Shown here: positions 960 to 64,000 of the stretch, in pieces
Numbering within the stretch: the first letter of the stretch is position 1
Layout of the letters: each line of letters begins with the position of its first letter
Virus record (IMG/VR): IMGVR_UViG_3300009034_000010
Span: 24,722-88,721 of that record
Origin: a virus
DNA length: 64,000 nucleotides
Direction: 5' to 3' (one strand)
Program-made: the position numbers and the translations under genes
The notes under the pieces: generated by a model
Told to the model about the DNA's origin: nothing
The model's database searches: none
What the model saw: the letters and a program-made list of their open reading frames with translations, nothing else

Positions 960-1465
960 AATACATGTCCCCACTTTTTATGATTTTTAATATCACTAAG
1001 ATGTGGGATACTAACTTTATAAATATAAGCTAAGTCTTTTAATCTTAACTTACTTTCTCTAATCTGTATCACATCTGCTTCTGTTAATTTAGAATTTCCT
1101 TGAATCTCACCTCGTGGACCAATTCTTCCAAGTTCCTTCATAGCGTGTTCTATATTCTCTTTAGAAGTAGCCCATTCAAGATTAGTAGCTTCATTATGAT
1201 TCTTAATGCCATCTCTATGATTAACTTCAGGTTTATTATCAGGATTTGGTATAAAAGTTTCAGCTACGAGTCTGTGAATTGAAAATTTTTTAACCTGTCC
1301 ATCTTTACATAAATTTACATAAAGATATCCTTTGCCTCTTATACCAAATTTAAGAATACACTCTCTTACAAGACTTTTTACTTTACCTAAATTAGATACT
1401 TGATAGCGACCTTCATAACTCTTTATATCTTTCCAAATCTCCTCTATATAAATCTGATTTAACAT
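947..1465 (-). CDS. HNH homing endonuclease (NUMOD4-HNH-HTH)
   Basis: A 172-residue protein with the classic order: an N-terminal NUMOD4 DNA-contact motif (EIWKDIKSYEGRYQVSNLGKVKSL, about residues 9-32), an HNH nuclease core (IHRLVAETFIPNP, then PEVNHRDGIKNHNEATNLEW, about 63-98) and a C-terminal helix-turn-helix (KLTEADVIQIRES onward). These enzymes cut intronless alleles and copy themselves in. It sits between a small membrane-protein gene and the tail-fibre-like gene, overlaps the latter's start, and belongs to a family of at least seven members in this window. Confidence 0.9.
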   Translation of the reverse strand: MLNQIYIEEIWKDIKSYEGRYQVSNLGKVKSLVRECILKFGIRGKGYLYVNLCKDGQVKKFSIHRLVAETFIPNPDNKPEVNHRDGIKNHNEATNLEWATSKENIEHAMKELGRIGPRGEIQGNSKLTEADVIQIRESKLRLKDLAYIYKVSIPHLSDIKNHKKWGHVLCLE

Positions 1466-13402: not shown

Positions 13403-13410
13403 AGGTAGTT

Positions 13411-14178
13411 ATGAAGAACAGTATTTTAAAATTTTGTGATGTTTATGAACGAGGAGCAGATACAAACGCTCTTTTGGAAAGTCTGGACGATACGATAAAT
13501 AAAATTGTTCGGTCATGTTTTAAAAGATTTTGTGGATCAATTGATGCAGATGATATAGCTCAGGAAGTAAGGATTCATTTATGGGAAGACATATTTGAAC
13601 ATCCTGAGAAAAATTATTTGGAAAATATGGGTGCTGTAGAAGCTTATAAATACTTAACTACCACTATTAAATCTTGGGTTTGGAGAGCAATAGAACGTTC
13701 AAAAAATGAGAATGTACCGACTGCTTATGAAGAAGATGGAATAAGTGTTTCACTTTTTGTTACACTTTCTATGTTCGATATTGAATATACAAATTTTAAT
13801 TCTCATGAGAGTATAAGAGACTATATACAGTTACTTCGGGATAATTGTTCAGATATACCAAGAGGTCAAATAGTTCTGGAATATCTTGCACCTAAAGAAG
13901 ATATAGACGATAGTGCACCTTCTTTTAAATATGCAGGACTTTCATCAAGTACGTTCTATAAAACGATAAAATTACTTAAAGAAAGAGCTAAAAGACTTCT
14001 TAATGACGAACCTTTCTTGCTTCATAAGAGAGGTAAAGGTAACGTAAAATTAACTGAAACTCAGATACTTGAAATCAGGGAGAGTCCGTTAAGATTAGAA
14101 AAATTGTCTAAAATGTACAAGGTGACAGTTTCCACCATAAGTAATATTAGAAATAAAAAATCTTGGAAAAATATTTAA
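13411..14178 (+). CDS. Sigma-like factor with HNH-type C-terminal HTH
   Basis: 255 residues from the ATG at 13411 (GAGG ribosome site). The N-terminal half looks like sigma region 2 (DADDIAQEVRIHLWEDIFE, then YLTTTIKSWVWRAIERSKNE), and SSSTFYKTIKLLKERAKRLL could be region 4. It may be the counterpart of T4 gp55, the late sigma. Oddly, the last ~50 residues (KLTETQILEIRESPLRLEKL...NIRNKKSWKNI) closely match the C-terminal HTH of this phage's HNH endonucleases, as if a homing gene had fused in frame. Distant similarity only, so the role is tentative. Confidence 0.6.
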   Translation: MKNSILKFCDVYERGADTNALLESLDDTINKIVRSCFKRFCGSIDADDIAQEVRIHLWEDIFEHPEKNYLENMGAVEAYKYLTTTIKSWVWRAIERSKNENVPTAYEEDGISVSLFVTLSMFDIEYTNFNSHESIRDYIQLLRDNCSDIPRGQIVLEYLAPKEDIDDSAPSFKYAGLSSSTFYKTIKLLKERAKRLLNDEPFLLHKRGKGNVKLTETQILEIRESPLRLEKLSKMYKVTVSTISNIRNKKSWKNI

Positions 14179-14180
14179 TT

Positions 14181-15209
14181 ATGAGCGAAGATAAAAAGAA
14201 AACGAAAAAGACTGAGAAGAAGAAAGAGCCAACTTTAAAGGAAAGAGTAGATGTTATTCTTATGGGTGCTCTTGGAGAATTTATTCTACCAACCACGATA
14301 ACAGGACAAATAAAATCAAGTTGGATTACATTTAATAAATTTGCTCCAATAGAGTTTGGTACAAGTGTCTTACTTTATGGCGCTTCTCAGTCTGGCAAAT
14401 CTGTTATGATGATGAAATTGGGAGCTGCTATCCAGAAAATGGGTGGACTATTCGTATGCTTCAATACAGAAGCTGCAAACAGAGATATTATATTTCTTGA
14501 AAAAGCAATACCTGAATTAAATTATAAAGATATAGCTTTCTATCAACCAAACACAATCGAACATGTTTTTGATTGTATCAATTTGATAATCGATAATGCT
14601 AAAATAGACGGTCCTCCTATTTTTATAGCTGTTGATTCTATAAGTGCTTGCGCTACAAAACATGAGTTAGGTACATCTATGGAAAAAGCGGCTATGGAAG
14701 GTGCCAGAATAGCAGGACTTATATCAACTGGCTTAAGACAATCTACTTGTCGCTTGAGTAAGAAACCGATTGTACTTTGTTTGGTTTCTCAAGAAAGAGA
14801 AACTGTAGGAATGTTTGAAAAAGAGAAAACGAAACCAACGGGTGGACGTGCTCCTCAATTTCATGCTTCAACCACTCTTTATACTCGTGGACATAATGTT
14901 CTTTACAGAAACGAAGAAAATGGAGAATATAAAGCTAAGGCCGCAACTCCATTTCAACCTGCTGCGGCTAAAGAGTGTTCTTTAGAACTTCAGAAGAGTC
15001 GTTTTTCTGCCGGTGGTAATAGAATGACTTATATCATTGACTATACTACTGGAATCTCTGATAATGATGGTTTATTTGATCTTCTCGTTTATCAAAAGAC
15101 GCTTGTACAAGCGGGGAGTTGGTATGCATTTGGAAAAGAAAAGTTTTATAGAAAAGATTTTAACGAGTTTTTAAAGACTCATCCACAACTTTTAGATATG
15201 GTAAAATGA
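14181..15209 (+). CDS. RecA/UvsX-type recombinase
   Basis: 342 residues from the ATG at 14181. Contains Walker A GASQSGKS (about 67-74), an acidic strand with a glutamate after FNTEAAN, Walker B IFIAVDSISA (D152) and a SQERETVG/PTGGRAPQFHAS segment corresponding to the DNA-binding loop region. A very lysine-rich N-terminal tail (first 25 residues) precedes the core. Catalyses strand invasion for recombination-dependent replication and repair, working with the SSB and the gp46/gp47 pair in the same operon. Confidence 0.88.
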   Translation: MSEDKKKTKKTEKKKEPTLKERVDVILMGALGEFILPTTITGQIKSSWITFNKFAPIEFGTSVLLYGASQSGKSVMMMKLGAAIQKMGGLFVCFNTEAANRDIIFLEKAIPELNYKDIAFYQPNTIEHVFDCINLIIDNAKIDGPPIFIAVDSISACATKHELGTSMEKAAMEGARIAGLISTGLRQSTCRLSKKPIVLCLVSQERETVGMFEKEKTKPTGGRAPQFHASTTLYTRGHNVLYRNEENGEYKAKAATPFQPAAAKECSLELQKSRFSAGGNRMTYIIDYTTGISDNDGLFDLLVYQKTLVQAGSWYAFGKEKFYRKDFNEFLKTHPQLLDMVK

Positions 15210-19705: not shown

Positions 19706-22402
19706 GTGAAGTACGAATGCCCTGATAATACATGTGAATTTAAAGGTGAAGGTGTATGTCCTTACCCTGTATCTAAAGGTAAGAATTGTATTCACCACAT
19801 AGAATCTCCGTGTGTAAAATGCAAAGTAGAAAAGAATTTGTATCCTGCTTTCGGAAACGCTCAGAGTCGAGTTATGGTTATAGGGGGCTGTAACTTTGAC
19901 TCTGATAAAGATATAGTTATTTCACAATTTAATCAAGCTTCCGCAGAAGCGAATTTACCTGCATCATATTACTACACTACTGCAATTTCTTGTTATGTAA
20001 ATAAAAAACCAACTATTAATCTTATTAAGCGCTGTAATAAATGGCTTAAACAACAAATAGACATAATAAAGCCTAAATACGTTATGTTACTTGGTGAAAC
20101 TGCTTTTAAGGCTGTTCTATGGGATTTTGATCTTATTACAAGAAGAAAACCTGAGATAGATGCATGTGCAGGGGCTCATATAATAAAAGATGGAATAGTT
20201 TACTTTCCTGTCCATAATTTTAAGGATATTGAAACTAATATCTCTAAGCGTCAAGCATTTAGAGAACATCTTATAAAATTTCTTGAATTAATAAATGGAG
20301 TAAGAAAAATAACTCCGACTTATTATAAAGAAGCTGACTCTGAGAAAGATCTTTCATACATAAAAGAGATAGCTGAACAAACTGGACGAGTAGCTGTTGA
20401 TATTGAAACAAATGCTTTTACTCCATTTCTGCCAGATTCAGAGATAACAACTTTGTCATTATCTGTTAACGAAGCTGAGTCTTTCGTTCTTCCTTTATCG
20501 TACCGGCACGGGGCTTATTTCAAAAAATGGAATTATACTCCAAAGGTCAATCCTTTATTAGCTATTACATATATCAATAAATTATTGAAAGATCCTAATA
20601 TTACAAAGATTTTTCATAATGCTGCTTTTGATATAGTTTGGCTGGAAACTATTCTCGGTCTTGAAATTGTTAATTACGATGACACAATGCTCATGAAATT
20701 CTTAATGAATCAGAATGAGCAAGAACGAAAAGCTTTAAAAGTTCTTCTTAAACAACATACTGATATTGGTTTTTATGAGTACGCACTTAAACAATATGTT
20801 GGTGACGGTGAATCCTATATGAATATCCCTCCCAATATTATGGTTGATTATAACGCAGGGGATACAGATGGTACTCTTCGTTTGTGGAACCTTTTCCGAC
20901 CAAAGCTTCGAGATAAAGAACTTTGGGATATTCATTATAATTTTATGGTGCCTCAACTTAGAGGTATTATGGATTTAATAAAGACAGGAATTGCGTTAGA
21001 TGTACCTCATTGTATACGTATGAAAGAGAAAAATGAGGAGCGACTTATTGAATTATTTTCTAAATTACGATCATTACAGGAAGTAGCAAATTTTGAAAGA
21101 CAGACTGGTTTAGAATTCAAGCCTAGTTCCGATAAACATAAATTCGCTGTTGTTTATGGTGGGGAAATTACGACTGAGGAAGAGGTGCCTCGTAGGATAG
21201 TAAACGGTAAAAAACAAGGTAAAAAAGAGTATCAGAAAGTTGTGTTCAATAGTGGTTTTAATTTAAAAGAAATAACTGTTTCTGCAAAAACTAAAACCGG
21301 AAAGAGAGAACAACGAAAGTCCTTTGGGAAAAAGGCTATTCAGCAATATTTAAGGAGTATTTATAAAGATGTTGAACTTTTAGATCCGATAAATACATTT
21401 AATCTTGATCCTTTACCTGATAACACGAATATTATGAAGTTTATTAAGTTATCAACTGAAATTGGATCTATTCAAACGCAATTATCAAATCATATAGAAC
21501 CTTTTATTAACATGTGGGGGAATACTATAGATAAATGTGTTCATACTTCATATGATATTACTGGAACTACTACAGGCCGATTATCGTCTCGGAATCCTAA
21601 TTTACAAAATCTTAAACGTGATGGATTTGTGAAGGAAGCTTTTGTTTCCAGATGGGGCGATGACGGAATTCTTATAGAAGCTGATTATAAGCAGCTTGAA
21701 TTATTTGTCATGGCTATAGTTAGTCAGGACCCGACATTTATTCATGCTTTTGCTAATGGAATTGATCTTCATTTGAAAACGGCAGCTAATATTGTTTTTC
21801 GGTGTGTAGAAGAAGCTGTATCAAAGCAAATGCGCACAATGGCCAAAACGGTAAATTTTGGCATAATTTACGGAAAGACAGCTTATTCCCTTAAAGAAGA
21901 TTTAAATGTCACTGAGGAGGAAGCTGAGGCCATTCTGGAGGGGTATTTTAGAGAATACCCAGGTGTGTACGCATATTGTGAAAGAATAAAAGCTGAGGCT
22001 CGCTCTAAAGGCTTTGTTACTACAGTAATGGGTAGGCGGCGTTACTTAGATTATTCAGACCCGAATGGAGCGGATAGACAAGCGGTGAATACCACTATTC
22101 AGTCTCCGGCTTCCGATGTTTGTGTGACGGCGGTAAATTTATTACAGCAATATTATCGGAAAGTAGCTACAGACCGGGCACTTAAGACAAAAACGAAAAA
22201 TACTAATTGGTTTTTAGATAAAGAAATTAAGAAAAATACTGTAGCTTTAGCTTGCGGAACTGTACACGATAGTATTATAATAGACTGTAAAAGAGCATTT
22301 TTGAATCCGATTGTTAAGGCTACTAAATTAATTATGGAAAATACTGGGTTACCCTGGCTGACTATTCCTCTTAAAGTGGATATAAAATACGTAAAAATTT
22401 AA
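19706..22402 (+). CDS. polA: Uracil-DNA-glycosylase-like domain fused to DNA polymerase I
   Basis: 898 residues from a GTG start (CCGGAG ribosome site). Residues 1-195 look like a family 4 uracil-DNA glycosylase: N-terminal cysteines, SPCVKCKVEKNLYPAFG (C36, C39), IMV-like VMVIGG, AISC...KRCNKWLKQQID and LLGETAFKAVL. A DnaQ-type 3'-5' exonuclease follows (VDIETN with D232 and E234; FHNAAFD, D309; Y382/D386), then a family A polymerase: motif A EADYKQLE (D660), motif B RTMAKTVNFGIIYG (K714) and motif C VHDS (D855). The usual GEAPG water-activating loop of the glycosylase is replaced by GGCNFDSD, so glycosylase activity is doubtful while the polymerase looks intact. Confidence 0.88.
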   Translation: MKYECPDNTCEFKGEGVCPYPVSKGKNCIHHIESPCVKCKVEKNLYPAFGNAQSRVMVIGGCNFDSDKDIVISQFNQASAEANLPASYYYTTAISCYVNKKPTINLIKRCNKWLKQQIDIIKPKYVMLLGETAFKAVLWDFDLITRRKPEIDACAGAHIIKDGIVYFPVHNFKDIETNISKRQAFREHLIKFLELINGVRKITPTYYKEADSEKDLSYIKEIAEQTGRVAVDIETNAFTPFLPDSEITTLSLSVNEAESFVLPLSYRHGAYFKKWNYTPKVNPLLAITYINKLLKDPNITKIFHNAAFDIVWLETILGLEIVNYDDTMLMKFLMNQNEQERKALKVLLKQHTDIGFYEYALKQYVGDGESYMNIPPNIMVDYNAGDTDGTLRLWNLFRPKLRDKELWDIHYNFMVPQLRGIMDLIKTGIALDVPHCIRMKEKNEERLIELFSKLRSLQEVANFERQTGLEFKPSSDKHKFAVVYGGEITTEEEVPRRIVNGKKQGKKEYQKVVFNSGFNLKEITVSAKTKTGKREQRKSFGKKAIQQYLRSIYKDVELLDPINTFNLDPLPDNTNIMKFIKLSTEIGSIQTQLSNHIEPFINMWGNTIDKCVHTSYDITGTTTGRLSSRNPNLQNLKRDGFVKEAFVSRWGDDGILIEADYKQLELFVMAIVSQDPTFIHAFANGIDLHLKTAANIVFRCVEEAVSKQMRTMAKTVNFGIIYGKTAYSLKEDLNVTEEEAEAILEGYFREYPGVYAYCERIKAEARSKGFVTTVMGRRRYLDYSDPNGADRQAVNTTIQSPASDVCVTAVNLLQQYYRKVATDRALKTKTKNTNWFLDKEIKKNTVALACGTVHDSIIIDCKRAFLNPIVKATKLIMENTGLPWLTIPLKVDIKYVKI

Positions 22403-25157: not shown

Positions 25158-25655
25158 ATGAAAGAAAATTGGAAAGATATAAAGGATTTTGAAGGTTATT
25201 ATCAGGTTTCTAATTTAGGAAGAGTAAAAAGTTTAAGAAGAAAAAGAATAACAGGAGGTTATCTAAAAGAACGTATTCTTAAGTTTAATTTACAAACTGT
25301 TGGATATTACACAGTTACTTTATATAAAAATGGAGTTATATCTCAACGTAGAGTTCATAGACTTGTAACAGAAGCTTTTATTCTTAATGTATTTAATAAG
25401 CCATGTGTTAATCATAAAAGTGGTATTAAGATAGATAATGAAGTTGAGAATCTCGAATGGTGTACTTATTCTGAAAATGAAAAACATGCTTATTCTTCTT
25501 TAGGAAAGACGAGACATCGTGGTTATAAGAAATTATGCGATACTGATATAAAACAAATTAAAGAACTTAAAGCTAAAGGTCTTTCCAAAAGATCAATAGC
25601 TAAAATGTTTAATGTTGTTCATTCTACAATTGGTTATTATACAAAGAATGATTAA
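25158..25655 (+). CDS. HNH homing endonuclease upstream of primase
   Basis: 165 residues: NUMOD4 (NWKDIKDFEGYYQVSNLGRVKSL, 4-26), HNH core (VHRLVTEAFILN, then PCVNHKSGIKIDNEVENLEW) and C-terminal HTH (LSKRSIAKMFNVVHSTIGYY). The nuclease histidine pair is intact. Ends one base before the primase ATG, so primase translation probably depends on readthrough coupling from it. Confidence 0.88.
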   Translation: MKENWKDIKDFEGYYQVSNLGRVKSLRRKRITGGYLKERILKFNLQTVGYYTVTLYKNGVISQRRVHRLVTEAFILNVFNKPCVNHKSGIKIDNEVENLEWCTYSENEKHAYSSLGKTRHRGYKKLCDTDIKQIKELKAKGLSKRSIAKMFNVVHSTIGYYTKND

Positions 25656-28354: not shown

Positions 28355-28884
28355 ATGATTGAAATTTGGAAAGATATAAAAGGTTATGAAGGTACTTATC
28401 AAATAAGTAACAAAGGAAGAATAAAGAGATTAGCCAGAAAAGATTTAACAGGACGCATTCTTCATGAACGAATATTAAAAACTTCTATAGGATCAAAGGG
28501 GTATCTTCAATTTGGCTTATGAGAAAAAATGAAAAAAGAAAAATTAAAGATGTTCATAGAATAGTTGCAGAAACATTTATTCCTAATTATGATAATAAGC
28601 CTCAAGTTAATCATAAAGATGGGATTAAAATTAATGTTGAAGCTAATAATCTTGAATGGGTTACTGTGAAAGAAAATGCTGAACATAGAGATAATGTATT
28701 AGGTAAACATTTTAGAGGGGAACGATGTGGTAAAGCTAAATTGACTACTAAAGATGTTCTCGTTATAAAAGAGTTATTAAAAAATAAAAAATTAACACAA
28801 AAAGATATTGGAGAAATGTACGGCGTAAGTAATGTTTGTATTAATTATATCAACACAGGTAAACGTTGGTCTCATTTATGTTAG
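28355..28884 (+). pseudogene. HNH endonuclease gene broken by a frame change
   Basis: The first part (28355-28522, 55 codons) encodes an intact NUMOD4 (IEIWKDIKGYEGTYQISNKG) and stops at TGA. The rest (28519-28884, 121 codons) encodes the HNH core (VHRIVAETFIPN, QVNHKDGIK) and HTH in the -1 frame, overlapping by ATGA. Restoring one base, giving TTA TGG AGA AAA, would read GLWRKNEK as in related proteins here. Either recent decay, a base-calling error, or two coupled polypeptides. Confidence 0.8.
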
Positions 28885-29263: not shown

Positions 29264-29485
29264 ATGCCACTTTATGATTACCGTTGTCCGGTATGTGGAG
29301 CGATTATTGAAAGTTTTGGTAGTTATGATGAAGACATAAAAATGAGACAATGCTGCTCTTCCTTGTGTAATGGAGAGCAGCAAAATTTTTATAGAATAAT
29401 ATCCGGTAAACCACCGGTTATAATATTTAAAGGAGATGGTTGGGCAAAAGATAATTATACTGGAAAATCAAATAATGAAAAATGA
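29264..29485 (+). CDS. FmdB-type zinc-ribbon protein
   Basis: 73 residues opening MPLYDYRCPVCGAIIESFGS, the FmdB/CxxC_CxxC_SSSS putative regulatory domain, with a second pair C..C at CCSSLC and the typical ending KGDGWAKDNYTGK. In phages these small ribbons are common and of unknown function. Its 3' end overlaps the start of the following HNH gene, which begins in ATGAAAAATGA. Confidence 0.75.
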   Translation: MPLYDYRCPVCGAIIESFGSYDEDIKMRQCCSSLCNGEQQNFYRIISGKPPVIIFKGDGWAKDNYTGKSNNEK

Positions 29486-29996
29486 AGAGATTTGGACGAA
29501 TATAAAAGACTATGAAGGATTATACCAAATTTCTTCATACGGACGAGTTAAAAGTCTTAGAAGGAAAAGATCAGATAATATCTGGACAAAAACTCGTATC
29601 CTTAAAAATAGAACAGATAAATATGGGTATTCACATGTAACTTTAGTTAAAAATAAGATATATAAAACATGTTTAGTTCATAGACTAGTAGCTAAAGCGT
29701 TTATACCTAATCTAAATAACAAACCTCAAGTTAATCATGAAGATGGTATTAAAAACCATAATTATGATTATAATTTAAAATGGTGTACTATATCTGAGAA
29801 TAATCAACATGCTTATGATATGCATTTAAAAGAAAGTCTTAAAGGAGAAGAGAATGGGACTTCAAAATTGAAAGATGGAGATGTTCTACAAATTAGAAAA
29901 AGTTCATTAACTCAAAAAGAGTTAGCAAGAATATTTGGTGTAACTCAAACACATATAAGTCGTATTAAACGAAATGTAAGTTGGAGACATATCTAA
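29475..29996 (+). CDS. HNH homing endonuclease
   Basis: 173 residues from the ATG at 29475. NUMOD4 (EIWTNIKDYEGLYQISSYGRVKSL), HNH core (VHRLVAKAFIPNLNNKPQVNHEDGIK) and C-terminal HTH (LTQKELARIFGVTQTHISRIK). All catalytic His/Asn positions look intact. Starts inside the end of the FmdB-like gene and ends one base before the next. Confidence 0.88.
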   Translation: MKNEEIWTNIKDYEGLYQISSYGRVKSLRRKRSDNIWTKTRILKNRTDKYGYSHVTLVKNKIYKTCLVHRLVAKAFIPNLNNKPQVNHEDGIKNHNYDYNLKWCTISENNQHAYDMHLKESLKGEENGTSKLKDGDVLQIRKSSLTQKELARIFGVTQTHISRIKRNVSWRHI

Positions 29997-33559: not shown

Positions 33560-33775
33560 GTGACTGAAATAGGATTAGATAAATGTTATCGTCATAGAGA
33601 TACAGGATGTGAATATCATATCTTGACTTATCTTCGTACAAAAACATTCGGTATGACTTTGTTAACAGAATACTATGACGGAATATGCGTAAATATTATT
33701 CCGATAGATAAAGAAAATTTTGATGATCATATTTCTGATTACGAAGAAATAGCTGAAGACGAATTCGCAGAATAG
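33560..33775 (+). CDS. Hypothetical protein ending at the tRNA cluster
   Basis: 71 residues from a GTG start (MTEIGLDKCYRHRDTGCEYHILTYL). Compact beta-rich sequence with an acidic tail (DYEEIAEDEFAE). Its stop codon shares one base with the first tRNA, so mRNA and tRNA are cut from a common transcript. Confidence 0.6.
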   Translation: MTEIGLDKCYRHRDTGCEYHILTYLRTKTFGMTLLTEYYDGICVNIIPIDKENFDDHISDYEEIAEDEFAE

Positions 33776-33859
33776 CGAGAGTGGTGGAATCTGGCGTACA
33801 CACAGGGTTTAAGCCCCTGCACCTTCGGGTTGAGGGTTCGAATCCCTCCTCTCGCACCA
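33775..33859 (+). tRNA. tRNA-Leu (UAA)
   Basis: Acceptor GCGAGAG pairs with CTCTCGC and CCA is encoded. Anticodon stem CAGGG/CCCTG with loop TTTAAGC (anticodon TAA); a long variable arm, as expected for leucine. Reads UUA/UUG, frequent in this A+T-rich genome. Confidence 0.93.
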
Positions 33860-33882
33860 ATAAAACGTAAATAAAATTTTAA

Positions 33883-33959
33883 GCGGGTGTGACGGAATTG
33901 GCAGACGTGCGGGATTTAGACTCCCGTTTTTAGAGGTTCGAGCCCTCTCACCCGTACCA
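33883..33959 (+). tRNA. tRNA-Leu (UAG)
   Basis: Acceptor GCGGGTG/CACCCGT with encoded CCA; anticodon stem CGGGA/TCCCG and loop TTTAGAC (anticodon TAG). The variable arm is short for a leucine tRNA, which is slightly unusual. Confidence 0.85.
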
Positions 33960-33962
33960 ATT

Positions 33963-34037
33963 TGGAGCGTGGCTTAGGGGCAAAGCACACGGCTGATAAC
34001 CGTGGGATCGGAGGTTCGATTCCTTCCGCTCCAACCA
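33963..34037 (+). tRNA. tRNA-Ile (GAU)
   Basis: Acceptor TGGAGCG/CGCTCCA, encoded CCA; anticodon stem CACGG/CCGTG with loop CTGATAA (anticodon GAT). The T arm GGAGGTTCGATTCCTTC is normal. Confidence 0.92.
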
Positions 34038-34041
34038 ATAA

Positions 34042-34132
34042 GGGGGAGTGTCTGAGTGGTTGAAAGAGCCGGACTGTAAATCCGGTCCCGTTGTGGTAAA
34101 CATCGTAGGTTCAAAACCTACCTCCCCCACCA
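34042..34132 (+). tRNA. tRNA-Tyr (GUA)
   Basis: Acceptor GGGGGAG/CTCCCCC, encoded CCA; anticodon stem CCGGA/TCCGG, loop CTGTAAA (anticodon GTA); long variable arm typical of bacterial tRNA-Tyr. The PurN gene starts 15 bases downstream. Confidence 0.93.
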
Positions 34133-34146
34133 ATTTAGAGGTTATA

Positions 34147-34764
34147 ATGATAAATATAGGTATTTTAGTTTCGGGAAATGGTACAAATATGGAAGCTATT
34201 TTAAAAGCTTCCGAGAATGGTATTTTAGAAAATAGAATTAATCCTGTAGTTATTATCTCTAATAATAGAGAAGCAAAAGCTATAGAAAAAGCCCGGAAAT
34301 ATAAGTCTATAGTAGAGTTTATAATAGAAAGAGAAACATATAAAAGTGCTCAAACTTACGATAAAGCTGTTTGTGATACTCTTAAACTTTATGAAGTTGA
34401 TCTTGTAGTATTAGCCGGTTATAATAGATTAATAAAAAATTATAGTCATCCTGACTGTATTCTTCGCTCTTTTTCAAAAAGAATAGTAAACATTCACCCA
34501 TCACTTCTTCCAGCATTTCCTGGTATGGGAGCTATAAAACAGGCTCTTGACTATGGTGTTAAGATCACAGGTTGCACGATTCACTGGGTAGATGCCGGGA
34601 TGGATACCGGAAAAATTATTAAACAGAAAAGTTGTATAATAGAGCCTGAAGATACGTTAGAAACATTAACAAATCGTGTTCATAAAAGTGAGCATTCTCT
34701 TTATGTAGAAGCATTAAGAAATGTTTACTTTTTGATGAAAAGACCAAAATATGACAAATACTAA
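34147..34764 (+). CDS. purN: Phosphoribosylglycinamide formyltransferase
   Basis: 205 residues from the ATG after TAGAGG; longer frames upstream are tRNA sequence. Motifs: LVSGNGTNMEAIL (phosphate loop), VLAGYNRLI, NIHPSLLPAFPG (catalytic N, H) and VDAGMDTGKII (catalytic D). Transfers a formyl group in purine synthesis, boosting the purine supply for phage DNA. It is the only purine-pathway gene visible here and stands right after the tRNA cluster. Confidence 0.88.
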   Translation: MINIGILVSGNGTNMEAILKASENGILENRINPVVIISNNREAKAIEKARKYKSIVEFIIERETYKSAQTYDKAVCDTLKLYEVDLVVLAGYNRLIKNYSHPDCILRSFSKRIVNIHPSLLPAFPGMGAIKQALDYGVKITGCTIHWVDAGMDTGKIIKQKSCIIEPEDTLETLTNRVHKSEHSLYVEALRNVYFLMKRPKYDKY

Positions 34765-35362
34765 TGTGATACGAATATTGAATGCACTTTACGCCGGTTT
34801 TCCTATCAAAATAGATGGGTATGACTATTATCTTGGCTCTAATAACATGCTTGGCATTAAGGCTGATAGGTATATCGATAATGTAAAGCAGCCAGATGAC
34901 GGAACTATACAAGGAGTAGACTGGTCTCTTAAAGATTTTTTAACTGTTTGTGAACAAATGTCAGAACAAGAAATTGAGATGCAATGTTCTGAAGCAGAAC
35001 GAAAAATAGCTGCCGTAGAATCCGATACTAAAAAGATTACTAAAAGTTACGCTTCGAATGATGAGCGAAAATATAAAATAAAGAGTAATCAGTATTTATT
35101 TAAATATCCTAATTTTCTGAACAGTCAAATTAATAGACTCAATAATATTGTTCAAAATGATAATGTAATTCCACTTAGTGATCTTAAGCAATGGCTTAAG
35201 GATCTTACAAGAATTATTTATAAATTGTTGGACTATGCAGAAAATATAGTTTATTATATAAAATATAATCAGGAACCTAAAATAGACCCTGATGCCTCTG
35301 GTTTACTCGATGATACATTGATACTGGATTCACTATGGCCGGACGATGATATACTTTTTTAG
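34751..35362 (+). CDS. Hypothetical protein after purN
   Basis: 203 residues (MTNTNVIRILNALYAGFPIKIDGYDYYLG). The N-terminal ~60 residues look like a small beta domain; the middle is charged and helical; the end is very acidic (DDTLILDSLWPDDDILF). Overlaps the purN stop by 14 bases. Not recognised. Confidence 0.6.
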   Translation: MTNTNVIRILNALYAGFPIKIDGYDYYLGSNNMLGIKADRYIDNVKQPDDGTIQGVDWSLKDFLTVCEQMSEQEIEMQCSEAERKIAAVESDTKKITKSYASNDERKYKIKSNQYLFKYPNFLNSQINRLNNIVQNDNVIPLSDLKQWLKDLTRIIYKLLDYAENIVYYIKYNQEPKIDPDASGLLDDTLILDSLWPDDDILF

Positions 35363-35370
35363 GAGAAATT

Positions 35371-35601
35371 ATGACTAGATTAGAATGGTTAACTTGGGTT
35401 TTTTGGAGTAGGTCTCCTCTCTTTTGGTATTGGGTTCATCAACAAGGTGGTAAAATATGGCATGTACTTATTGGAGTACATGATATATCTGATCCTTTTA
35501 TAGATTGGATTCCTTGTGTTGGATATGGTAGTTATCACAAAACTTTAAGAAGAATGGTGGCTAAAACAGGCCGAAATATTTATGGAGATAAATTGAATTA
35601 A
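35371..35601 (+). CDS. Hypothetical Trp-rich small protein
   Basis: 76 residues with seven tryptophans concentrated in the first 50 (LTWVFWSRSPLFWYWVHQ). Could sit in the membrane interface. AGGAG ribosome site; the stop is immediately followed by tRNA-Gln. Confidence 0.6.
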   Translation: MTRLEWLTWVFWSRSPLFWYWVHQQGGKIWHVLIGVHDISDPFIDWIPCVGYGSYHKTLRRMVAKTGRNIYGDKLN

Positions 35602-35676
35602 TCAGGAGTCGTCTAGTCGGTAGGATACCGGACTTTGAATCCGACAACACAGGTTCGACCCCTGTCTCCTGAACCA
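35602..35676 (+). tRNA. tRNA-Gln (UUG)
   Basis: Acceptor TCAGGAG/CTCCTGA with encoded CCA; anticodon stem CGGA/TCCG (outer pair mismatched) and loop CTTTGAA (anticodon TTG). Separated from the other four tRNAs by three protein genes. Confidence 0.88.
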
Positions 35677-36932: not shown

Positions 36933-37498
36933 TAGGTCATAATTGTTTTACAGAAGAACAAGTAGAAGCTGAATTTGAAAATTATCTTATTAATCCTATG
37001 GCTTCTTATCTCAGATATGCTTTTCCTTTAGTTAAACGAATTTGGGCAAGTTCGGAAAACAAATATCATAGAGGTTTAAGGCACACACCTATACCAAATC
37101 TTAATTATGAGGGACCAGATGACGGACAAGCCGTGCGGGATATATTGAGAAAAAGGCTCCTTCGAGACGTAAGACCGGTTTCCAGTTATGGGACATTGTG
37201 CTCGATTAAGGAGTTAGAAAAGTCTCAACGGTGTCCTGAGTTTTTCAAATTGATGAATAACCGAATGGTTATGGGTGCTTTCCGCTATGGAAAATTATCA
37301 GCACAGAAGAACTCTGACGTAAAATACGATAATATTGCCTCAATACGTAAGAGACTAACCCTTTATGAAGAAACAGGCAATTTAGAGCATCTGGTGGACT
37401 GTGGGAACCTTTGTATGATAGAATATATGATTGGAAATCATCCTAAAAAGCATTTTAGTTCTATTGATGATGGAGATCATCATGCAGAACTTAAATGA
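36866..37498 (+). CDS. Conserved phage hypothetical protein (GNLEHLVD motif)
   Basis: 210 residues. The C-terminal block RKRLTLYEETGNLEHLVDCGNLCMIEYMIGNHPKKHFSSIDD recalls a segment I recall from other phage proteins (roughly YxxTGNxEHLVDxxNxxxLEF..HP..HF). No catalytic role is known. The last 17 bases overlap the next HNH gene. Confidence 0.6.
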   Translation: MREDFARTNSGLRKVYYRDREIIGHNCFTEEQVEAEFENYLINPMASYLRYAFPLVKRIWASSENKYHRGLRHTPIPNLNYEGPDDGQAVRDILRKRLLRDVRPVSSYGTLCSIKELEKSQRCPEFFKLMNNRMVMGAFRYGKLSAQKNSDVKYDNIASIRKRLTLYEETGNLEHLVDCGNLCMIEYMIGNHPKKHFSSIDDGDHHAELK

Positions 37499-38006
37499 CG
37501 AAAAATGGCAAAATATAAAAGACTATGAAGGCTTGTATCAAGTTAGTACATTAGGAAGAGTCAAAAGTTTAGGAAGAAGAACACGGTGGGGCTTTATTCA
37601 TAGAGACTTAATCTTAAAACCTAATCTTGATAATTACGGTTATGCTTATGTTAATCTATACAATGGCACAAAAAGAAAATCAATAAAAGTACATAGGCTT
37701 GTTGCAATAACTTTTATAGCTAACCCTCATAATAAACCACAAGTTAATCATAAAGATGGGATTAAAATTAAAAATGAGGTAACTAATCTTGAATGGGCTA
37801 CTCAAATTGAGAATATAACACATAGACAAACAGTATTAAATATTCATTATAGAGGTGACGATGTCAATACAGCTAAATTAATTGAGAAATCTGTTCTTCA
37901 TATACGGAACAGTAAGAAATCGTTATGTCAGTTGGCAGAGAAGTATCATGTTTGTAAGTCTACAATACATAGGATAAAAAATAGAGAGACTTGGAAGCAT
38001 ATTTAG
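37482..38006 (+). CDS. HNH homing endonuclease
   Basis: 174 residues from the ATG after GGAGATCATC. NUMOD4 (KWQNIKDYEGLYQVSTLGRVKSL), HNH core (VHRLVAITFIANPHNKPQVNHKDGIK) and HTH (LCQLAEKYHVCKSTIHRIKN). Intact. It starts within the end of the preceding gene, like the other HNH copies here. Confidence 0.88.
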   Translation: MQNLNDEKWQNIKDYEGLYQVSTLGRVKSLGRRTRWGFIHRDLILKPNLDNYGYAYVNLYNGTKRKSIKVHRLVAITFIANPHNKPQVNHKDGIKIKNEVTNLEWATQIENITHRQTVLNIHYRGDDVNTAKLIEKSVLHIRNSKKSLCQLAEKYHVCKSTIHRIKNRETWKHI

Positions 38007-57297: not shown

Positions 57298-57815
57298 TCA
57301 AATATGTTTCCAATTCTTTCTATTTTTAATATTACTTATATATTTCGGGGTCACGTTAAATATTTCAGCAAGTTTTCTTCTTGGTAAAAGGCTATCTCGT
57401 ATTTGTAGTATATCTGCTCTTATTAATTTTGACCGGCCATTATGCTCACCTTTAGTATGCTTCTTCAAAATGGTATCTCTATGTATCACATTTTCTTTAT
57501 TAGTAACCCATTCCAGATTAGTAACTTCATTACAAGTTTTAATGCCGCTCTTATGATTAACTTCAGGCTTACTTTCAGGATTAGGAATGAAAGCTAAAGC
57601 TATAATCTATGAACTTTAACATCAGATACACGTCCTTTAATAGACAAACCTAAGTGGTAATAACCATATCTATCAAGTCTTGGCTTAAAAATACGTTCTT
57701 TCAACCAACGTCTGCCTGAACTATCCTTTCGTCTTAAGCTTTTAACATCTCCAAACGAACTAATTTGATAAGCCCCTTCATACCTCTCAATATCTTTCCA
57801 AATTTCGTCTTCCAT
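57298..57815 (-). pseudogene. HNH endonuclease gene broken by a frame change
   Basis: 5' part (57815 to ~57600): NUMOD4 (EIWKDIERYEGAYQISSFG) up to VHRL, then TAG. The 3' part in another frame continues ALAFIPNPESKPEVNHKSGIKTCNEVTNLEW and the HTH to 57298. Adding one G (TTA GTA GCT instead of TTA TAG CT) restores VHRLVALAFIPN. Decay or an indel error, as in the copy at 28355. Confidence 0.8.
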
Positions 57816-58940: not shown

Positions 58941-59176
58941 GTAATATTTGTGACTTTTATTAATTCTTTTATAAAAGCTCCACTATCCAAAGTCTTATAA
59001 TTACCTGAAAATACTCGTTGTTCCCCGTCTTTTATCCAAAAGCTACCCTTTATAAAATAAACCACTTCTATTTCATTCCCAGGTAAAAGCTTCTGACTAT
59101 AGATCCATACCCCGATAACTTTTCCTCTTTCAAAACCCAATTCGTTTAGGATATTTTTAGACTCCTGAATCGTCAT
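58937..59176 (-). CDS. Hypothetical protein
   Basis: 79 residues (MTIQESKNILNELGFERGKVIGV), alpha/beta, ending ...VTNIT directly on the promoter -35. Overlaps the preceding gene by 20 bases. Not recognised. Confidence 0.58.
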   Translation of the reverse strand: MTIQESKNILNELGFERGKVIGVWIYSQKLLPGNEIEVVYFIKGSFWIKDGEQRVFSGNYKTLDSGAFIKELIKVTNIT

Positions 59177-59606
59177 CTTTACTCTCTTTCGGTGGAGGTA
59201 AACACTTTACACCCTCTCCCACTGAAACTTCACCGCATGGTTTCTGCATATGCTTGTTCAACCACTCATTAAGCTCAGGGTAGTCTTTATAAAATTTCTC
59301 AAGCATCTTTATAGACTCTTCATCAGATATACCACAATTGAGAATCTCACTCAAATTTTTACTGTACATCTCACAAGAATATCTCATTAATTCAGCCGAT
59401 GTTAAAGATTTTCCGGATCGATACCCACTTCTATAAACTTCTTTTAAGTATACATTACCTTCTTCGTCTTGTGTACCTAAAGCAGCCACAGTTTCCTCTA
59501 GCAGTCCATAATCAATATCAATAAATAAATCATGAACTGGATTAACTTCCAAAACTTCCGCCCCTGCTTTCTTCAAGGCTTCAATTACTTGTTTTATTCC
59601 TTTCAT
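59157..59606 (-). CDS. Hypothetical protein, 149 residues
   Basis: MKGIKQVIEALKKAGAEVLEVNPVHDLFIDIDYG... from the ATG overlapping the previous TGA. Acidic and helical with a Ser/Pro/acidic tail (LPPPKESKDDDSGV). Not recognised. Confidence 0.6.
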   Translation of the reverse strand: MKGIKQVIEALKKAGAEVLEVNPVHDLFIDIDYGLLEETVAALGTQDEEGNVYLKEVYRSGYRSGKSLTSAELMRYSCEMYSKNLSEILNCGISDEESIKMLEKFYKDYPELNEWLNKHMQKPCGEVSVGEGVKCLPPPKESKDDDSGV

Positions 59607-59878
59607 GCATGTGCCCACCTTGTTTTTGCTTTTTTACAATGCTTTGTGAAATCACTTTTCTGATAAGGCATTCCATTATTTGGCATTATCCATAGTCTGA
59701 AACACCGACAACAAAGAAGGTGTGCCCTCCAGTTATCTCGTTTTAAGACTAAAGATTTTCCTGTACACCAACACCTCAGTTCATTAGCCGGATGATTTAA
59801 TTTATAGATCCAAGGAACTAAGCTGAGGAAGAAATAAATCACCTCATCATACGGTATTTTAAGTCTTACTATCTTCAT
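59603..59878 (-). CDS. Zinc-binding protein
   Basis: 91 residues from the ATG after GGAGATTGAAG. RCWCTGKSLVLKRDNWRAHLLCCRCF provides a C-x-C ... C-C-x-C metal site; rich in Trp. Probably nucleic-acid binding. Confidence 0.55.
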   Translation of the reverse strand: MKIVRLKIPYDEVIYFFLSLVPWIYKLNHPANELRCWCTGKSLVLKRDNWRAHLLCCRCFRLWIMPNNGMPYQKSDFTKHCKKAKTRWAHA

Positions 59879-60092
59879 CTTCAATCTCCAATTCTCTTGT
59901 ATAATAAGCGATTGACCCAAAATGCTCGTGCCCTCCAGTATTTGACCTAGTTATTACTTTCGAATTTTTGAACACAGAATACGTATGGTCAACGTATTTT
60001 ATTCTTGAACTATCCAAGAATCCGTTCATCTTTTCAGTTATCACATTAGGGTTAATATCTGGACCGAATGCTCTGATTCTTACTCTTGACAT
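59859..60092 (-). CDS. Hypothetical protein
   Basis: 77 residues (MSRVRIRAFGPDINPNVITEKM), beta-rich, with an acidic C-terminus (ELEIEDEDSKT). Overlaps the next gene. Not recognised. Confidence 0.58.
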   Translation of the reverse strand: MSRVRIRAFGPDINPNVITEKMNGFLDSSRIKYVDHTYSVFKNSKVITRSNTGGHEHFGSIAYYTRELEIEDEDSKT

Positions 60093-60117
60093 AAGATAAA
60101 TCCTCTAATTTTTCATA

Positions 60118-61464
60118 TTATTCCTTATCGTCCCTTAAATCATCAAATACAGGAAACCTCAAACTACCGTCCGGGGTAATCTCATTATATTGCAGCCTTA
60201 TCCATCTCCCTATTAAAAAGTCTTTTTCTTTCCAAAATTGGATTCTCTCCAATTCTTTAAAGCCAGAACCTACCTCAACCTCTTTACCACTCTCAAGCTC
60301 TGTAACAAATCCTCCGAGCATTTTCGGAAGATTGTTCGGATCAAGTTCACCTTCTTGAATTCTTTTCTGAAAATATTGTACATAATCCCCTCTCCACTCA
60401 AAATAGTCCACAATCTTTGCGTCAATATGATCCATTGGTTTCAATTTAGTAATCGTTTTCGACTTTGCAGTGCACCGCTTCCAGGCATAAACAAAATTTG
60501 TAGCCCGAACTATTGCCCCTTCATATCCCTCTGCCAGGAAAGAGTCATACAAAGCTTTTAAGTCTTCAGGATTTTTACAGAGATAAGTATCGATGGGAAT
60601 AGTTTTTGAATTTTGTATAGTCAAAAGAAGTTGAAACAATTGAAGCTGATCTGTATACGTACCGGAAACTATTTGAGCATGCCACTCTTGTACCGGAATA
60701 ATATTGAAAACATTGTACTTTAGCTCCGGTGGTATAGGTTTATTCTCACTAGAAAGAATACTGGAAATTTCATTGAATGAGTGAGCATGAGAGTATAACT
60801 CCCCGTCAAAAACAGAATTCAATTCATTAAGCATATTCCGGCCTACCGAAACCACCTTCCCCATTTGTAAATAAGTTGGAAGATTAACATTTGCTACAAT
60901 TATTCCACTCCGGCCAACGAAACCAACATTTGGAATGTAAGTGCAGCGGTATCCATCAAGTTTTCTTTGAACATATACCGGAAATTCAAACTTACTATAA
61001 GCCTCTTTCCAAGAACTCATAAGAAGAACATTATATTCCGGCACAATTTTTTCATCATAAGCTTTGTTTACTGTCTTCACCGATACGCCAGCAATAGGCT
61101 TCTTAAGAATAGCTTTACCTGCCCATTTTTTCTGCAACTCAGTAAACAGCCCGTCAAAATAATGGTAAATAACATCCCGATCTTCATTCTTAAGAGCTTT
61201 CTTCTTTCCGAGATATTTTGCCAGTCCACCGAGACTATAAATATCTTTCAGCGTAGCCATGTTAAGTGACTTATCGCTCACGGGCTTCGTAGGAAGTTTT
61301 TTAACGTGGTACACTCGATAAGGATTGAGTGCCACATCAAAATAAGCTTTAAGTGCCTCATTTTCGCTGTGCTTTGCAATGAGAGCTATCTTATCTTTAG
61401 TGCCGGTAGTCCGCTCCAGTTCTTCAAGAATTCCTTCTACATCTCCATTACCAAAAAGTATCAT
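60118..61464 (-). CDS. ATP-dependent DNA ligase
   Basis: 448 residues, in the range of T4/T7-like ligases. Nucleotidyltransferase motifs: YVQRKLDGYRCTY with the adenylated lysine (motif I), VFDGELY (motif III), YEGAIVR (IV) and TITKLKP (V), followed by an OB-fold domain ending LIGRWIRLQYNEITPDGSLRFPVFDDLRDDK. Seals nicks and Okazaki fragments. It is isolated from the other replication genes, on the opposite strand. Confidence 0.92.
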   Translation of the reverse strand: MILFGNGDVEGILEELERTTGTKDKIALIAKHSENEALKAYFDVALNPYRVYHVKKLPTKPVSDKSLNMATLKDIYSLGGLAKYLGKKKALKNEDRDVIYHYFDGLFTELQKKWAGKAILKKPIAGVSVKTVNKAYDEKIVPEYNVLLMSSWKEAYSKFEFPVYVQRKLDGYRCTYIPNVGFVGRSGIIVANVNLPTYLQMGKVVSVGRNMLNELNSVFDGELYSHAHSFNEISSILSSENKPIPPELKYNVFNIIPVQEWHAQIVSGTYTDQLQLFQLLLTIQNSKTIPIDTYLCKNPEDLKALYDSFLAEGYEGAIVRATNFVYAWKRCTAKSKTITKLKPMDHIDAKIVDYFEWRGDYVQYFQKRIQEGELDPNNLPKMLGGFVTELESGKEVEVGSGFKELERIQFWKEKDFLIGRWIRLQYNEITPDGSLRFPVFDDLRDDKE

Positions 61465-61790
61465 AATCCAAGTACCTTTTCTATTTTCTCTTGCTGACAG
61501 TTCACTCTATAATTAAGAGAGGCTAAATCTTTACCATATTTGATATGTGCGTACCTGGCCTGATTTAACTCTATATTGAGTTGTTTGCCCCTTTTTATAG
61601 CAGCTTCAAGTTTAGTAGACACCTTTGAAAATTCGTTGAATTTGTCGGATAACTCCCTAATTTTTTCTTCCCTTTTCTCAACCTTATATTCAAGTCTCCT
61701 CATATCAACAAGAAGACTTTCAATAGTGTCTTTTTTTGACGCAACTATCCCTTCCAAAATCTCAATCTTTCTTGCTTTACTTCCAAACAT
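61461..61790 (-). CDS. Coiled-coil protein
   Basis: 109 residues, heptad-patterned throughout (KIEILEGIVASKKDTIESLLVDMRRLEYKVEKREEKIRELSDK). Four-base overlap with the ligase start, so coupled to it. Structural partner or scaffold; unknown. Confidence 0.6.
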   Translation of the reverse strand: MFGSKARKIEILEGIVASKKDTIESLLVDMRRLEYKVEKREEKIRELSDKFNEFSKVSTKLEAAIKRGKQLNIELNQARYAHIKYGKDLASLNYRVNCQQEKIEKVLGL

Positions 61791-61807
61791 AATATATTTA
61801 CCTTATT

Positions 61808-61999
61808 CTATAAAGGACACCACCCTGGTATCTTATCTACATTTCTAATAATCCGTCTAAAACAATCATAACCTCTACTCTTACACACTAAATCGTGATC
61901 ACAACATATTTTCGAACCACCTTTAATAAAAGCTCCGGTATGACTTGAGTGGAGACATTCGCTACATTTATTAATAGTTGTGATGATAGTTTTAGCCAC
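61808..61999 (-). CDS. Zinc protein ending in IPGWCPL (GTG start)
   Basis: 63 residues: KCSECLHSSHTGAF, CCDHDLVCKSRGYDCF and the ending IPGWCPL form the pattern of a small phage protein family I recall, with conserved Cys and a terminal WCPL. GTG start after TAGGAAG. First gene behind the promoter at 62050. Confidence 0.62.
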   Translation of the reverse strand: MAKTIITTINKCSECLHSSHTGAFIKGGSKICCDHDLVCKSRGYDCFRRIIRNVDKIPGWCPL

Positions 62000-62022
62000 G
62001 ATAATAATCTTCCTATATTTTT

Positions 62023-62050
62023 ATTATACCTTATCAAAAAATATTGTCAA
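62023..62050 (-). promoter_or_regulatory. ACTTGACAA-type promoter overlapping a stop codon
   Basis: Minus strand TTGACA (62050-62045), 16-bp spacer, perfect TATAAT (62028-62023). The TGA of the GGDEF gene (62049-62047) is inside TTGACA. Confidence 0.8.
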
Positions 62051-62595
62051 GTAACAACGCTCCAGTCTTTTCCTTTTTCTTTGGCAGCATAAAGATTTTT
62101 ATCAGCTAAACCTATAAGTTTTTCAACATTTATTTCATCCCCTTTAATAAACATTGCACCACCTACCGATACTGTATGTTCAGTGTTACCTTTAACCGCA
62201 AATCTGAAGTCATTACATATATTGGAGAATTCCTGTGCATAAGTATTTGAAATTAATACCATAAGCTCGTCACCACCATAACGAATTAAGACCCCCTTCT
62301 TTTTTAAAACTTTATTAATCAAATTAACTATACTGAGAATAACTTGGTCCCCATACGGATGACCCTTTTTATCGTTAATACTTTTAAAATCATCAAAGTC
62401 GATAATTGCAAGACCAAAAGGTACGCCTTTCTTATCGGTACGTTTCATCATTCTGGCTAATTTGCTATTCCTTCTAGTGATAGCCCAATCTTTTGTATAA
62501 CAACCAGTAAATAAGTCTCTTTCGCTTCGCCACTTATAAGTGTATGTGGTTATACTCAATATAACAATTATAACTGACAATATTGCATAAATCAT
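62047..62595 (-). CDS. Membrane-anchored diguanylate cyclase (GGDEF)
   Basis: 182 residues from the ATG after TGGAG. One N-terminal transmembrane helix (residues 1-20), then a complete GGDEF domain: DLFTGCYTKDW, IDFDDFKSINDKKGHPYGDQV (metal D and substrate N/D), and the signature RYGGDEL (107-111). The RxxD inhibitory site that normally precedes the signature is absent (KKKGVLIRY), so product inhibition should be weak. It would make cyclic di-GMP in the infected cell and could alter host motility or biofilm state. Rare in phages. Confidence 0.88.
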   Translation of the reverse strand: MIYAILSVIIVILSITTYTYKWRSERDLFTGCYTKDWAITRRNSKLARMMKRTDKKGVPFGLAIIDFDDFKSINDKKGHPYGDQVILSIVNLINKVLKKKGVLIRYGGDELMVLISNTYAQEFSNICNDFRFAVKGNTEHTVSVGGAMFIKGDEINVEKLIGLADKNLYAAKEKGKDWSVVT

Positions 62596-62597
62596 GA

Positions 62598-62765
62598 TTA
62601 ACTCCAATGTTTAATGACTTTAAGTCTTATTCCTTCTTTATTTGGTAAAGGCTTTAAAGGTTTTATAGGTAACTGTACCCCCGTTATTATTGTGACATTG
62701 AATAACTTTGCAATAAAAGCTAAAAATCTACACTTTAAAGAAGGTAAAAAATATTTATACCTCAT
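62598..62765 (-). CDS. 55-residue basic protein
   Basis: MRYKYFLPSLKCRFLAFIAKLFNV...GVQLPIKPLKPLPNKEGIRLK, basic with one hydrophobic patch. TTTAGGAGGTGTAAC ribosome site; start overlaps the preceding TGA. Confidence 0.55.
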   Translation of the reverse strand: MRYKYFLPSLKCRFLAFIAKLFNVTIITGVQLPIKPLKPLPNKEGIRLKVIKHWS

Positions 62766-63025
62766 GTTACACCTCCTAAAGAAATGTTACTGTTCTTTAC
62801 ACCTATAAGTGTCAGTGTTATAGCCCATCTACCCATACCTCTGCACACTGCACCGAATACTGTATTCTTACTCACTAAAGACCATACAATAGCTTCTTTA
62901 GTACCTTTGGTATGTTTAATTTCTAAAGCTTTCTTAGCATTTTCCAACACAGTCTTTGCACTAAAGGAAGTGCAGGGAATTAATTCTGTTGACTCCTCTT
63001 TCTCATCGCATACTAATAAAAACAT
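62762..63025 (-). CDS. Hypothetical protein
   Basis: 87 residues (MFLLVCDEKEESTELIPCTSF), a strand-helix-strand outline with WSLVSKNTVFGAVCRGMGRWAITLTL. No motif. Overlaps the next gene by four bases. Confidence 0.58.
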   Translation of the reverse strand: MFLLVCDEKEESTELIPCTSFSAKTVLENAKKALEIKHTKGTKEAIVWSLVSKNTVFGAVCRGMGRWAITLTLIGVKNSNISLGGVT

Positions 63026-63026
63026 C

Positions 63027-63359
63027 TTAGAACTCCTTACTTATCAAACATTTCTCAACGAATTTTTTAGCCACTTCAAGAGAATTGAAATCAAGATCAA
63101 AAACCTCACCTTTAGAACTTCTGATATACCCGAAATTAACCTTAAAATCATTATACATCCACATCATAGGTTTGAACTTACCTTTTATCTCCACAACAGC
63201 CCCGATAGGAATCTTACCATAAGTATAATTATAGTATAGTCTATAAGAACGACCGTTGGCTAGACTGTCTTCCTCTTCCCAAGTATGAGCGACATCATTA
63301 TCCGCAAAACCTCGATTAAGATTTTCTCTATTATCTGGAAATTTTTTGCTCACCTTCAT
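63027..63359 (-). CDS. Hypothetical protein, 110 residues
   Basis: MKVSKKFPDNRENLNRGFADND... aromatic, beta-rich (YRLYYNYTYGKIPIGAVVEIKGKF). Start lies inside the preceding gene, using AAGGAAA as ribosome site. Not recognised. Confidence 0.58.
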   Translation of the reverse strand: MKVSKKFPDNRENLNRGFADNDVAHTWEEEDSLANGRSYRLYYNYTYGKIPIGAVVEIKGKFKPMMWMYNDFKVNFGYIRSSKGEVFDLDFNSLEVAKKFVEKCLISKEF

Positions 63360-63480
63360 TTTCCTTTTCTTGTGTTATTTTTACGTAATCTTCTAAACAT
63401 TTAACTCTTTTCTCAAGTTGCCAATTATTCCAAGCTAAAAGAACTATAAAAAGACCCGCTATAAATAATATAAGCTTCAT
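63331..63480 (-). CDS. 49-residue single-span membrane protein, possibly leaderless
   Basis: MKLILFIAGLFIVLLAWNNWQLEKRVKCLEDYVKI...: one N-terminal span and a coiled tail, like a small Rz1- or spanin-type anchor. The promoter's -10 ends five bases before the ATG and there is no ribosome site, so translation may begin at the transcript's 5' end. Confidence 0.55.
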   Translation of the reverse strand: MKLILFIAGLFIVLLAWNNWQLEKRVKCLEDYVKITQEKENEGEQKISR

Positions 63481-63485
63481 TTTTA

Positions 63486-63513
63486 ATATTACCTCGTTAA
63501 TTTAATTTGTCAA
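63486..63513 (-). promoter_or_regulatory. ACTTGACAA-type promoter, leaderless layout
   Basis: Minus strand TTGACA (63513-63508), 16-bp spacer, TAATAT (63491-63486), ATG at 63480. Confidence 0.7.
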
Positions 63514-63533
63514 GTAATTTTTTTTACTTTTAT

Positions 63534-63616
63534 CAAAAAAAAAGAGCCAAGTTCAAAAAGAAGTATTACAGGAACACGTGTAATGCACAATACTTAACTT
63601 AATGAACTTGACTCTT
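63534..63616 (-). terminator. Large branched terminator, leftward
   Basis: Minus strand AAGAGTCAAGTTC (63616-63604) pairs with GAACTTGGCTCTT (63554-63542, one mismatch) and is followed by a ten-base T run; an inner AAGTATT/AATACTT stem makes a branched structure. Closes the tRNA-Pro transcript. Confidence 0.75.
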
Positions 63617-63911
63617 GCTTGCAGGTACATAGCGGAACGTCCGATAGTACCCCCGTAGTAGGACATACTGACCGTCAGCTAAGTCAGATAGTACCCCTAC
63701 ACATCAATTGTGCTGGTTGCAACTTAACTTCTCGCCTCTAAGATTACCATCTGTCAATCAATTAACTGATATCGGCTCTCCGCATCTCGAAGTTCAGCAC
63801 TTTATTTTGCCGATTTTCTCCCAAATTACTCTTTTACCGGTGGGGCACGGTATTCGGCAACCGTTTGGTAATCCGTTGATTTGCTACACTGGATCAACGG
63901 ATAAATCAATC
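63617..63911 (-). other. Non-coding transcript region between tRNA-Pro and terminator
   Basis: About 295 bases without a convincing gene. On the minus strand two GGGGTACTATC repeats (near 63691 and 63654), ACGGT-N8-ACCGT, and a 10-bp hairpin ATCCGTTGAT/ATCAACGGAT (63871-63902) just after the tRNA. Enough symmetry for a structured RNA, but no known class is recognised. Confidence 0.4.
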
Positions 63912-63989
63912 TGGTCAGGGTGACAAGATTCGAACTTGTGTGATCCCGCTTCCAGGGCGGGAGACTCTTGACCGCTAGCCTACACCCTG
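63912..63989 (-). tRNA. tRNA-Pro (UGG)
   Basis: Minus strand acceptor CAGGGTG/CACCCTG with encoded CCA; anticodon stem CCCGC/GCGGG and loop CCTGGAA (anticodon TGG); T arm AAGTTCGAATCTT. Separate from the plus-strand tRNA cluster and on the other strand. Confidence 0.92.
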
Positions 63990-64000
63990 ACATTTATAAA

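Follow-up and report, generated by a model that had tools for sequence, protein, structure and literature searches.

A phage-encoded minimal membrane-anchored GGDEF-domain protein with a GGDEL signature, a putative diguanylate cyclase

The window analysed here is a stretch of 64,000 nucleotides (nt) comprising bases 24722-88721 of the 88,722-base virus record IMGVR_UViG_3300009034_000010 in IMG/VR. Its minus strand carries an open reading frame (ORF) for a GGDEF-domain protein of 182 amino acids (aa), a putative diguanylate cyclase whose signature reads GGDEL. The frame begins with an ATG at position 62595, preceded by GGAG 6 nt 5' of the start codon, and ends at 62047; an alternative TTG start would make the product four residues longer. 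The gene and the parts of its product discussed below are as follows.

62047..62595, minus strand: GGDEF-domain protein of 182 aa, minimal and membrane-anchored; putative diguanylate cyclase of the GGDEL type (ORF, family match, alignment and model)
62518..62595, minus strand: hydrophobic helix at the N-terminus (roughly residues 1-20), then a six-residue link to a DxLT-like turn, codons 1-26 (hydropathy; model helix 2-25)
62293..62304, minus strand: place of the inhibitory site (I-site), with K-K-K-G instead of RxxD, codons 98-101 (alignment)
62263..62277, minus strand: GGDEL signature, Leu replacing Phe, codons 107-111 (alignment)

The assignment of this ORF to the GGDEF family is beyond chance. 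PF00990 (GGDEF) is its top Pfam family (E 3.6e-27, with a score of 95.5 bits where the cut-off is 23.8), TIGR00254 covers residues 21-181 of the protein (positions 2-166 of 168 in the model), and 47 distinct PDB sequences match at E <= 0.001. Seven PHROG families are also matched, all with function listed as unknown. The sole hydrophobic segment is the N-terminus, where the best 19-residue hydropathy mean (2.13) starts at residue 1, and the helix and the GGDEF domain together occupy all 182 aa, leaving no space for a sensor domain. Both the membrane anchor and the lack of a sensor proposed in a preliminary description of the locus are thus borne out. In the predicted structure, helix 2-25 enters the DxLT-like turn directly, so that only about six residues lie between the membrane and the catalytic domain.

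The AlphaFold model (built with 59 sequences) has a mean pLDDT of 96.2 and a pTM of 0.87. When it was compared with the PDB, GGDEF proteins appeared throughout the matches shown, among them 5llx (Z 25.6), GcbC 5euh (Z 25.1; root-mean-square deviation 1.3 over 155 aligned residues), activated PleD (2wb4/2v0n), WspR 3i5b and DgcR 6zxb. FimX 3hva, a degenerate GGDEF protein, also matches (Z 23.4); the fold is therefore no proof of activity.

The active site was examined in a residue alignment of 11 sequences: the GGDEF protein, gp150 of Bacillus phage SP-15 and nine cellular relatives. All positions that are invariant in this alignment are kept, including D66, D68, F70, K71, N74, D75, G78, H79, G82, D83, R105, G107, G108, E110, D165 and K172, and D109 stands third in the signature. 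All residues for metal, base and phosphate (D66, N74, D83, D109, E110 and K172) are present, N74 and D83 corresponding to the guanine contacts of PleD. The signature itself, in the context RYGGDEL, agrees with GG(D/E)EF at four of five positions. The earlier claim of a full GGDEF active site is wrong in this respect, since Leu rather than Phe stands at the fifth place. With this mismatch we class the product as a GGDEF-domain protein and a putative diguanylate cyclase.

A primary I-site of the RxxD type is missing, as had been proposed: K98 is found at the Arg position and G101 at the Asp position, so that the product is not expected to inhibit the enzyme through RxxD, the known route of feedback. 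Absence of this site is not rare. In a sample of viral GGDEF domains (110 loci confirmed in a scan, of which the best 80 were kept, giving 74 distinct domains), 51 of 74 have RxxD at the standard place and 23 do not; this sample was retrieved by motif patterns and is biased to canonical sequences. GGDEF-type receptors of cyclic di-GMP (c-di-GMP) usually retain RxxD. The kept metal, base and phosphate positions, together with the absent I-site, would suit catalysis better than a role as receptor of c-di-GMP.

Several known proteins resemble this one. Gp150 of SP-15 (SP15_150, AMM44948.1), annotated as a diguanylate cyclase, has 183 aa and the same order of an N-terminal hydrophobic helix (hydropathy 2.65, against 2.13 here) and a GGDEF domain; it differs in its signature, GGEEF, and in having kept RxxD (as REED). 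SP-15, a large lytic phage, also has a terminase related to the one on our record (31% over query residues 362-740). In Bacillus phage G, a lytic giant phage, gp350 ('GGDEF motif diguanylate cyclase') likewise has a hydrophobic N-terminal part followed by GGDEF, but is longer (254 aa), has a GGDEF signature and shows RxxD (REED) in its printed sequence. Ten viral models in BFVD match at E <= 0.001, led by SP-15 gp150 and phage G gp350, the latter being the best fold match. Solved diguanylate cyclases mostly carry sensor or receiver parts. GcbC, WspR, PleD and DgcR share the catalytic fold and catalytic residues of the GGDEL protein; aligned residue by residue, all four show an RxxD-type site and a signature with Phe, both of which it lacks. 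The gene encoding gp150 lies in a gene-dense region, as here, but within a block of carbohydrate genes, according to a figure legend in PMC5977210.

This kind of gene is not new, with precedents in SP-15, phage G and marine viromes; the combination of minimal size, no feedback site and GGDEL is slightly unusual. Virus-encoded diguanylate cyclases are described in the Cariaco Basin (PMC7785012, which also cites Pacific viromes), in sponge viromes (PMC7532657) and in sargassum phages (PMC11295528). The Cariaco Basin enzyme was proposed, much as is done here, to alter host signalling, but it belongs to a Mu-like phage, unlike the present one. Judged by titles and abstract openings, our literature search found no test of a phage diguanylate cyclase during infection.

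The GGDEF protein has matches in 115 phage records. Ten of the 60 listed were inspected: two are annotated (SP-15 and phiAX1), and eight are 'UNVERIFIED' and unannotated and were not counted as precedents. GGDEF genes also occur on large IMG/VR records, and some of them are short and stand-alone (open frames L046, 185 aa, on a 267-kb record; L064, 188 aa; L101, 175 aa; and L057 on record G006, 237 aa with one hydrophobic helix). Among 14 GGDEF-bearing virus records, SP-15's included, phrog_2 detected a terminase in five; it missed SP-15's own terminase, and its negatives therefore say little. In G006, the terminase match (100786-101763) crosses two in-frame TGA codons, and this phage may recode TGA. 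The tree of GGDEF proteins is poorly resolved: the nearest row to the GGDEL protein is a Lentisphaeria metagenome-assembled-genome protein at 98/60, and the GGDEL protein is not joined with those of SP-15 or phage G.

We consider it reasonably probable that the GGDEL protein is a phage-carried minimal diguanylate cyclase that is active and shifts the host to a sessile state. Two cytoplasmic GGDEF domains would be paired directly by the membrane helix, in a protein that has neither a sensor nor a coiled-coil linker nor a site for inhibition by the product; expressed during infection, the gene product would make c-di-GMP from GTP; and the rise in c-di-GMP would leave the host sessile and altered at its surface, to the advantage of the phage. 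We infer catalysis, dimerisation, time of expression and host effect alike. Constitutive c-di-GMP synthesis, as first suggested for this gene, is plausible, and the roles suggested with it (in surface, motility and interference with defence) are reasonable guesses, a change in host surface or motility being the likeliest guess for its part in infection.

A number of observations weigh against an active enzyme of this kind, and activity is only likely, not sure, because the signature is GGDEL. The fifth place of the signature is Phe in 10 of the 10 other aligned sequences and in 72 of the 74 distinct viral domains (GGEEF 36, GGDEF 34, GGEEL 1, GGEEM 1, SGDEF 1 and AGDEF 1). The DxLT...NR turn is changed as well, to D-L-F-T...T-K. 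'Constitutive' activity assumes productive dimerisation by a lone membrane helix; DgcR has a coiled-coil linker that sets its dimer (PMC8041772), and in the GGDEL protein this task would fall to the membrane helix itself. Relatives lend little help: single-protein patterns for close relatives of the GGDEF protein matched nine stretches in IMG/VR, of which none was confirmed, and the terminase as anchor gave one relative, a 29-kb fragment that does not cover the GGDEF region. Searches for kin phages with the ligase or the DnaB helicase as anchor found none, and the right third of the window had no match at the DNA level among 50,697 phage records.

We regard it as rather unlikely that the protein is catalytically dead or very weak and serves as a membrane adaptor or a GTP-binding module, or is decaying. 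This reading is favoured by GGDEL and the changed turn, but the active site is otherwise intact, no stop codon interrupts the frame, the codon usage is phage-like, and RxxD, which should persist in a dead receptor, is absent. The literature is divided. A statement in PMC4331095, citing Malone 2007, holds that Phe to Leu should wholly abolish activity, as in WspR, while PMC12900916 treats GGDEL/M domains as possibly still (restrictedly) active and notes that changes in the motif do not fully predict inactivity. A MASE2-GGDEL protein appears in a table of PMC8294551 that reports promoter activity, and GGDEL-EAL proteins are named in PMC12175535, their activity left unsettled. Should the GGDEL protein prove inactive, it would be a warning against inferring catalysis from a near-complete motif.

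A different product, or a different target, is very improbable: in this case the protein would make another cyclic dinucleotide, or would flood or decoy a nucleotide-based defence (CBASS, STING or Panoptes-like). A match to the Cas10/Cmr2 palm points this way, but it is weak and sub-threshold (24.8 bits against a cut-off of 27), and N74 and D83 are as in guanine-specific GGDEF enzymes. No defence family matches the GGDEF gene or four of the five neighbours tested, weak matches being confined to the coiled-coil-like ORF at 61461-61790, and no effector family was found among ten nearby ORFs. Phages are known or predicted to counter cyclic-nucleotide defence, as PMC7824862 and PMC12657218 describe, but the minimal CRISPR polymerase mCpol, in the account given in the latter, is nearly without a GGDEF signature. 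Identity with mCpol/Panoptes OptS, which would combine a palm of the mCpol/Cas10 type with an adjacent effector gene, was rejected, as PF00990 ranks first among the Pfam families and palm2 falls below its cut-off.

That the gene is host DNA misassembled onto a phage contig, or a very recent host gene, is barely credible. It does lie about 1.4 kb from the end of the record, in a region covered by no phage relative. Yet it is tightly packed with small ORFs (2-nt gap), its GC content (0.332) fits the phage, its synonymous codon usage is within the range of the phage genes (11 of 35 score lower), a phage-type ligase lies downstream, and its ten cellular matches are just 27-38% identical. The run of phage genes and the phage-like codon usage thus make contamination with host sequence, the condition named beforehand as fatal to the proposal, very unlikely, and the gene may be called phage-encoded as originally described.

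If active, the GGDEL protein would be among the few sensor-less, I-site-less membrane diguanylate cyclases from phages that seem to be lytic. Alongside those of SP-15 and phage G, it would then make the question of why a lytic phage raises c-di-GMP directly testable in Bacillus laboratory systems. A bolder and improbable extension is that lytic phages have repeatedly built stripped-down membrane c-di-GMP synthases, of which the GGDEL protein, without an inhibitory site, would have gone furthest; it would lock the infected cell in high c-di-GMP, changing its surface, excluding other phages or swamping a c-di-GMP-sensing defence.

The GGDEF gene is the last of four close-packed ORFs, with a 2-nt gap just before it and a 4-nt overlap further up. 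Its surroundings are as follows.

60118..61464, minus strand: ATP-dependent DNA ligase, phage-type, downstream neighbour (phrog_114, 2.5e-80)
62023..62050, minus strand: TTGACA-16-TATAAT, perfect (12/12), overlapping the GGDEF stop codon (promoter scan)
62598..62765, minus strand: small ORF, 55 aa, upstream of the GGDEF gene; its stop lies 2 nt before the GGDEF start; no Pfam match
62762..63025, minus strand: small ORF, 87 aa, upstream; 4-nt overlap with the next ORF
63027..63359, minus strand: small ORF, 110 aa, upstream (ORF list)
63486..63513, minus strand: promoter-like site (10/12), upstream of the four-ORF run (promoter scan)

The 55-aa ORF and the GGDEF gene likely share a transcript. 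The perfect site at 62023..62050 is probably the promoter of the following unit, from 61999 on. With at most one mismatch, the window holds nine copies of TTGACA-N16-TATAAT where 1.48 would be expected, and none of 100 shuffles reached nine; many such sites are therefore probably real promoters. A looser scan of 59000-64000 gave no excess (19 found against 16.8 expected). A cREC_REC match of the ORF at 61808-61999 (E 0.019, below cut-off) was dismissed as noise.

The record as a whole carries a terminase, helicases, an SbcC-like protein, a methyltransferase and the ligase, as well as a major head (capsid) protein, protease and tail proteins, four glycosyltransferase-like proteins, and genes for PolA, RecA and ribonucleotide reductase. 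The integrase family PF00589 was not found on the record (other recombinase families were not searched), and a lytic life is therefore likely. Genes for PilZ and EAL partners were likewise not found on the record.

The best phage matches of the ligase are SPO1-like. The ORF at 19706-22402 (plus strand) combines a family A DNA polymerase and a 3'-5' exonuclease with an N-terminal match to the uracil-DNA-glycosylase superfamily (5.2e-8), a layout reminiscent of SPO1-type phage polymerases. A homing-endonuclease-like NUMOD4/HNH family is present at 947-1465 (minus strand), 25158-25655, 28519-28884, 29436-29996 and 37431-38006 (plus strand), and 57298-57606 (minus strand); NUMOD4 is found in four members and HNH_3 alone in one, and the member at 57298 belongs by similarity only. 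Short regions common to the members also match beside the terminase of the relative record. Five tRNA genes (two Leu, Ile, Tyr and Gln) are clustered at 33775-35676, and a lone tRNA-Pro gene lies at 63912-63989, at the end of the record. To the left of the window, at record bases 12955-14205 (L002), a 416-aa RCC1-repeat protein adjoins the head-protease and capsid genes and is 56% identical in the relative phage.
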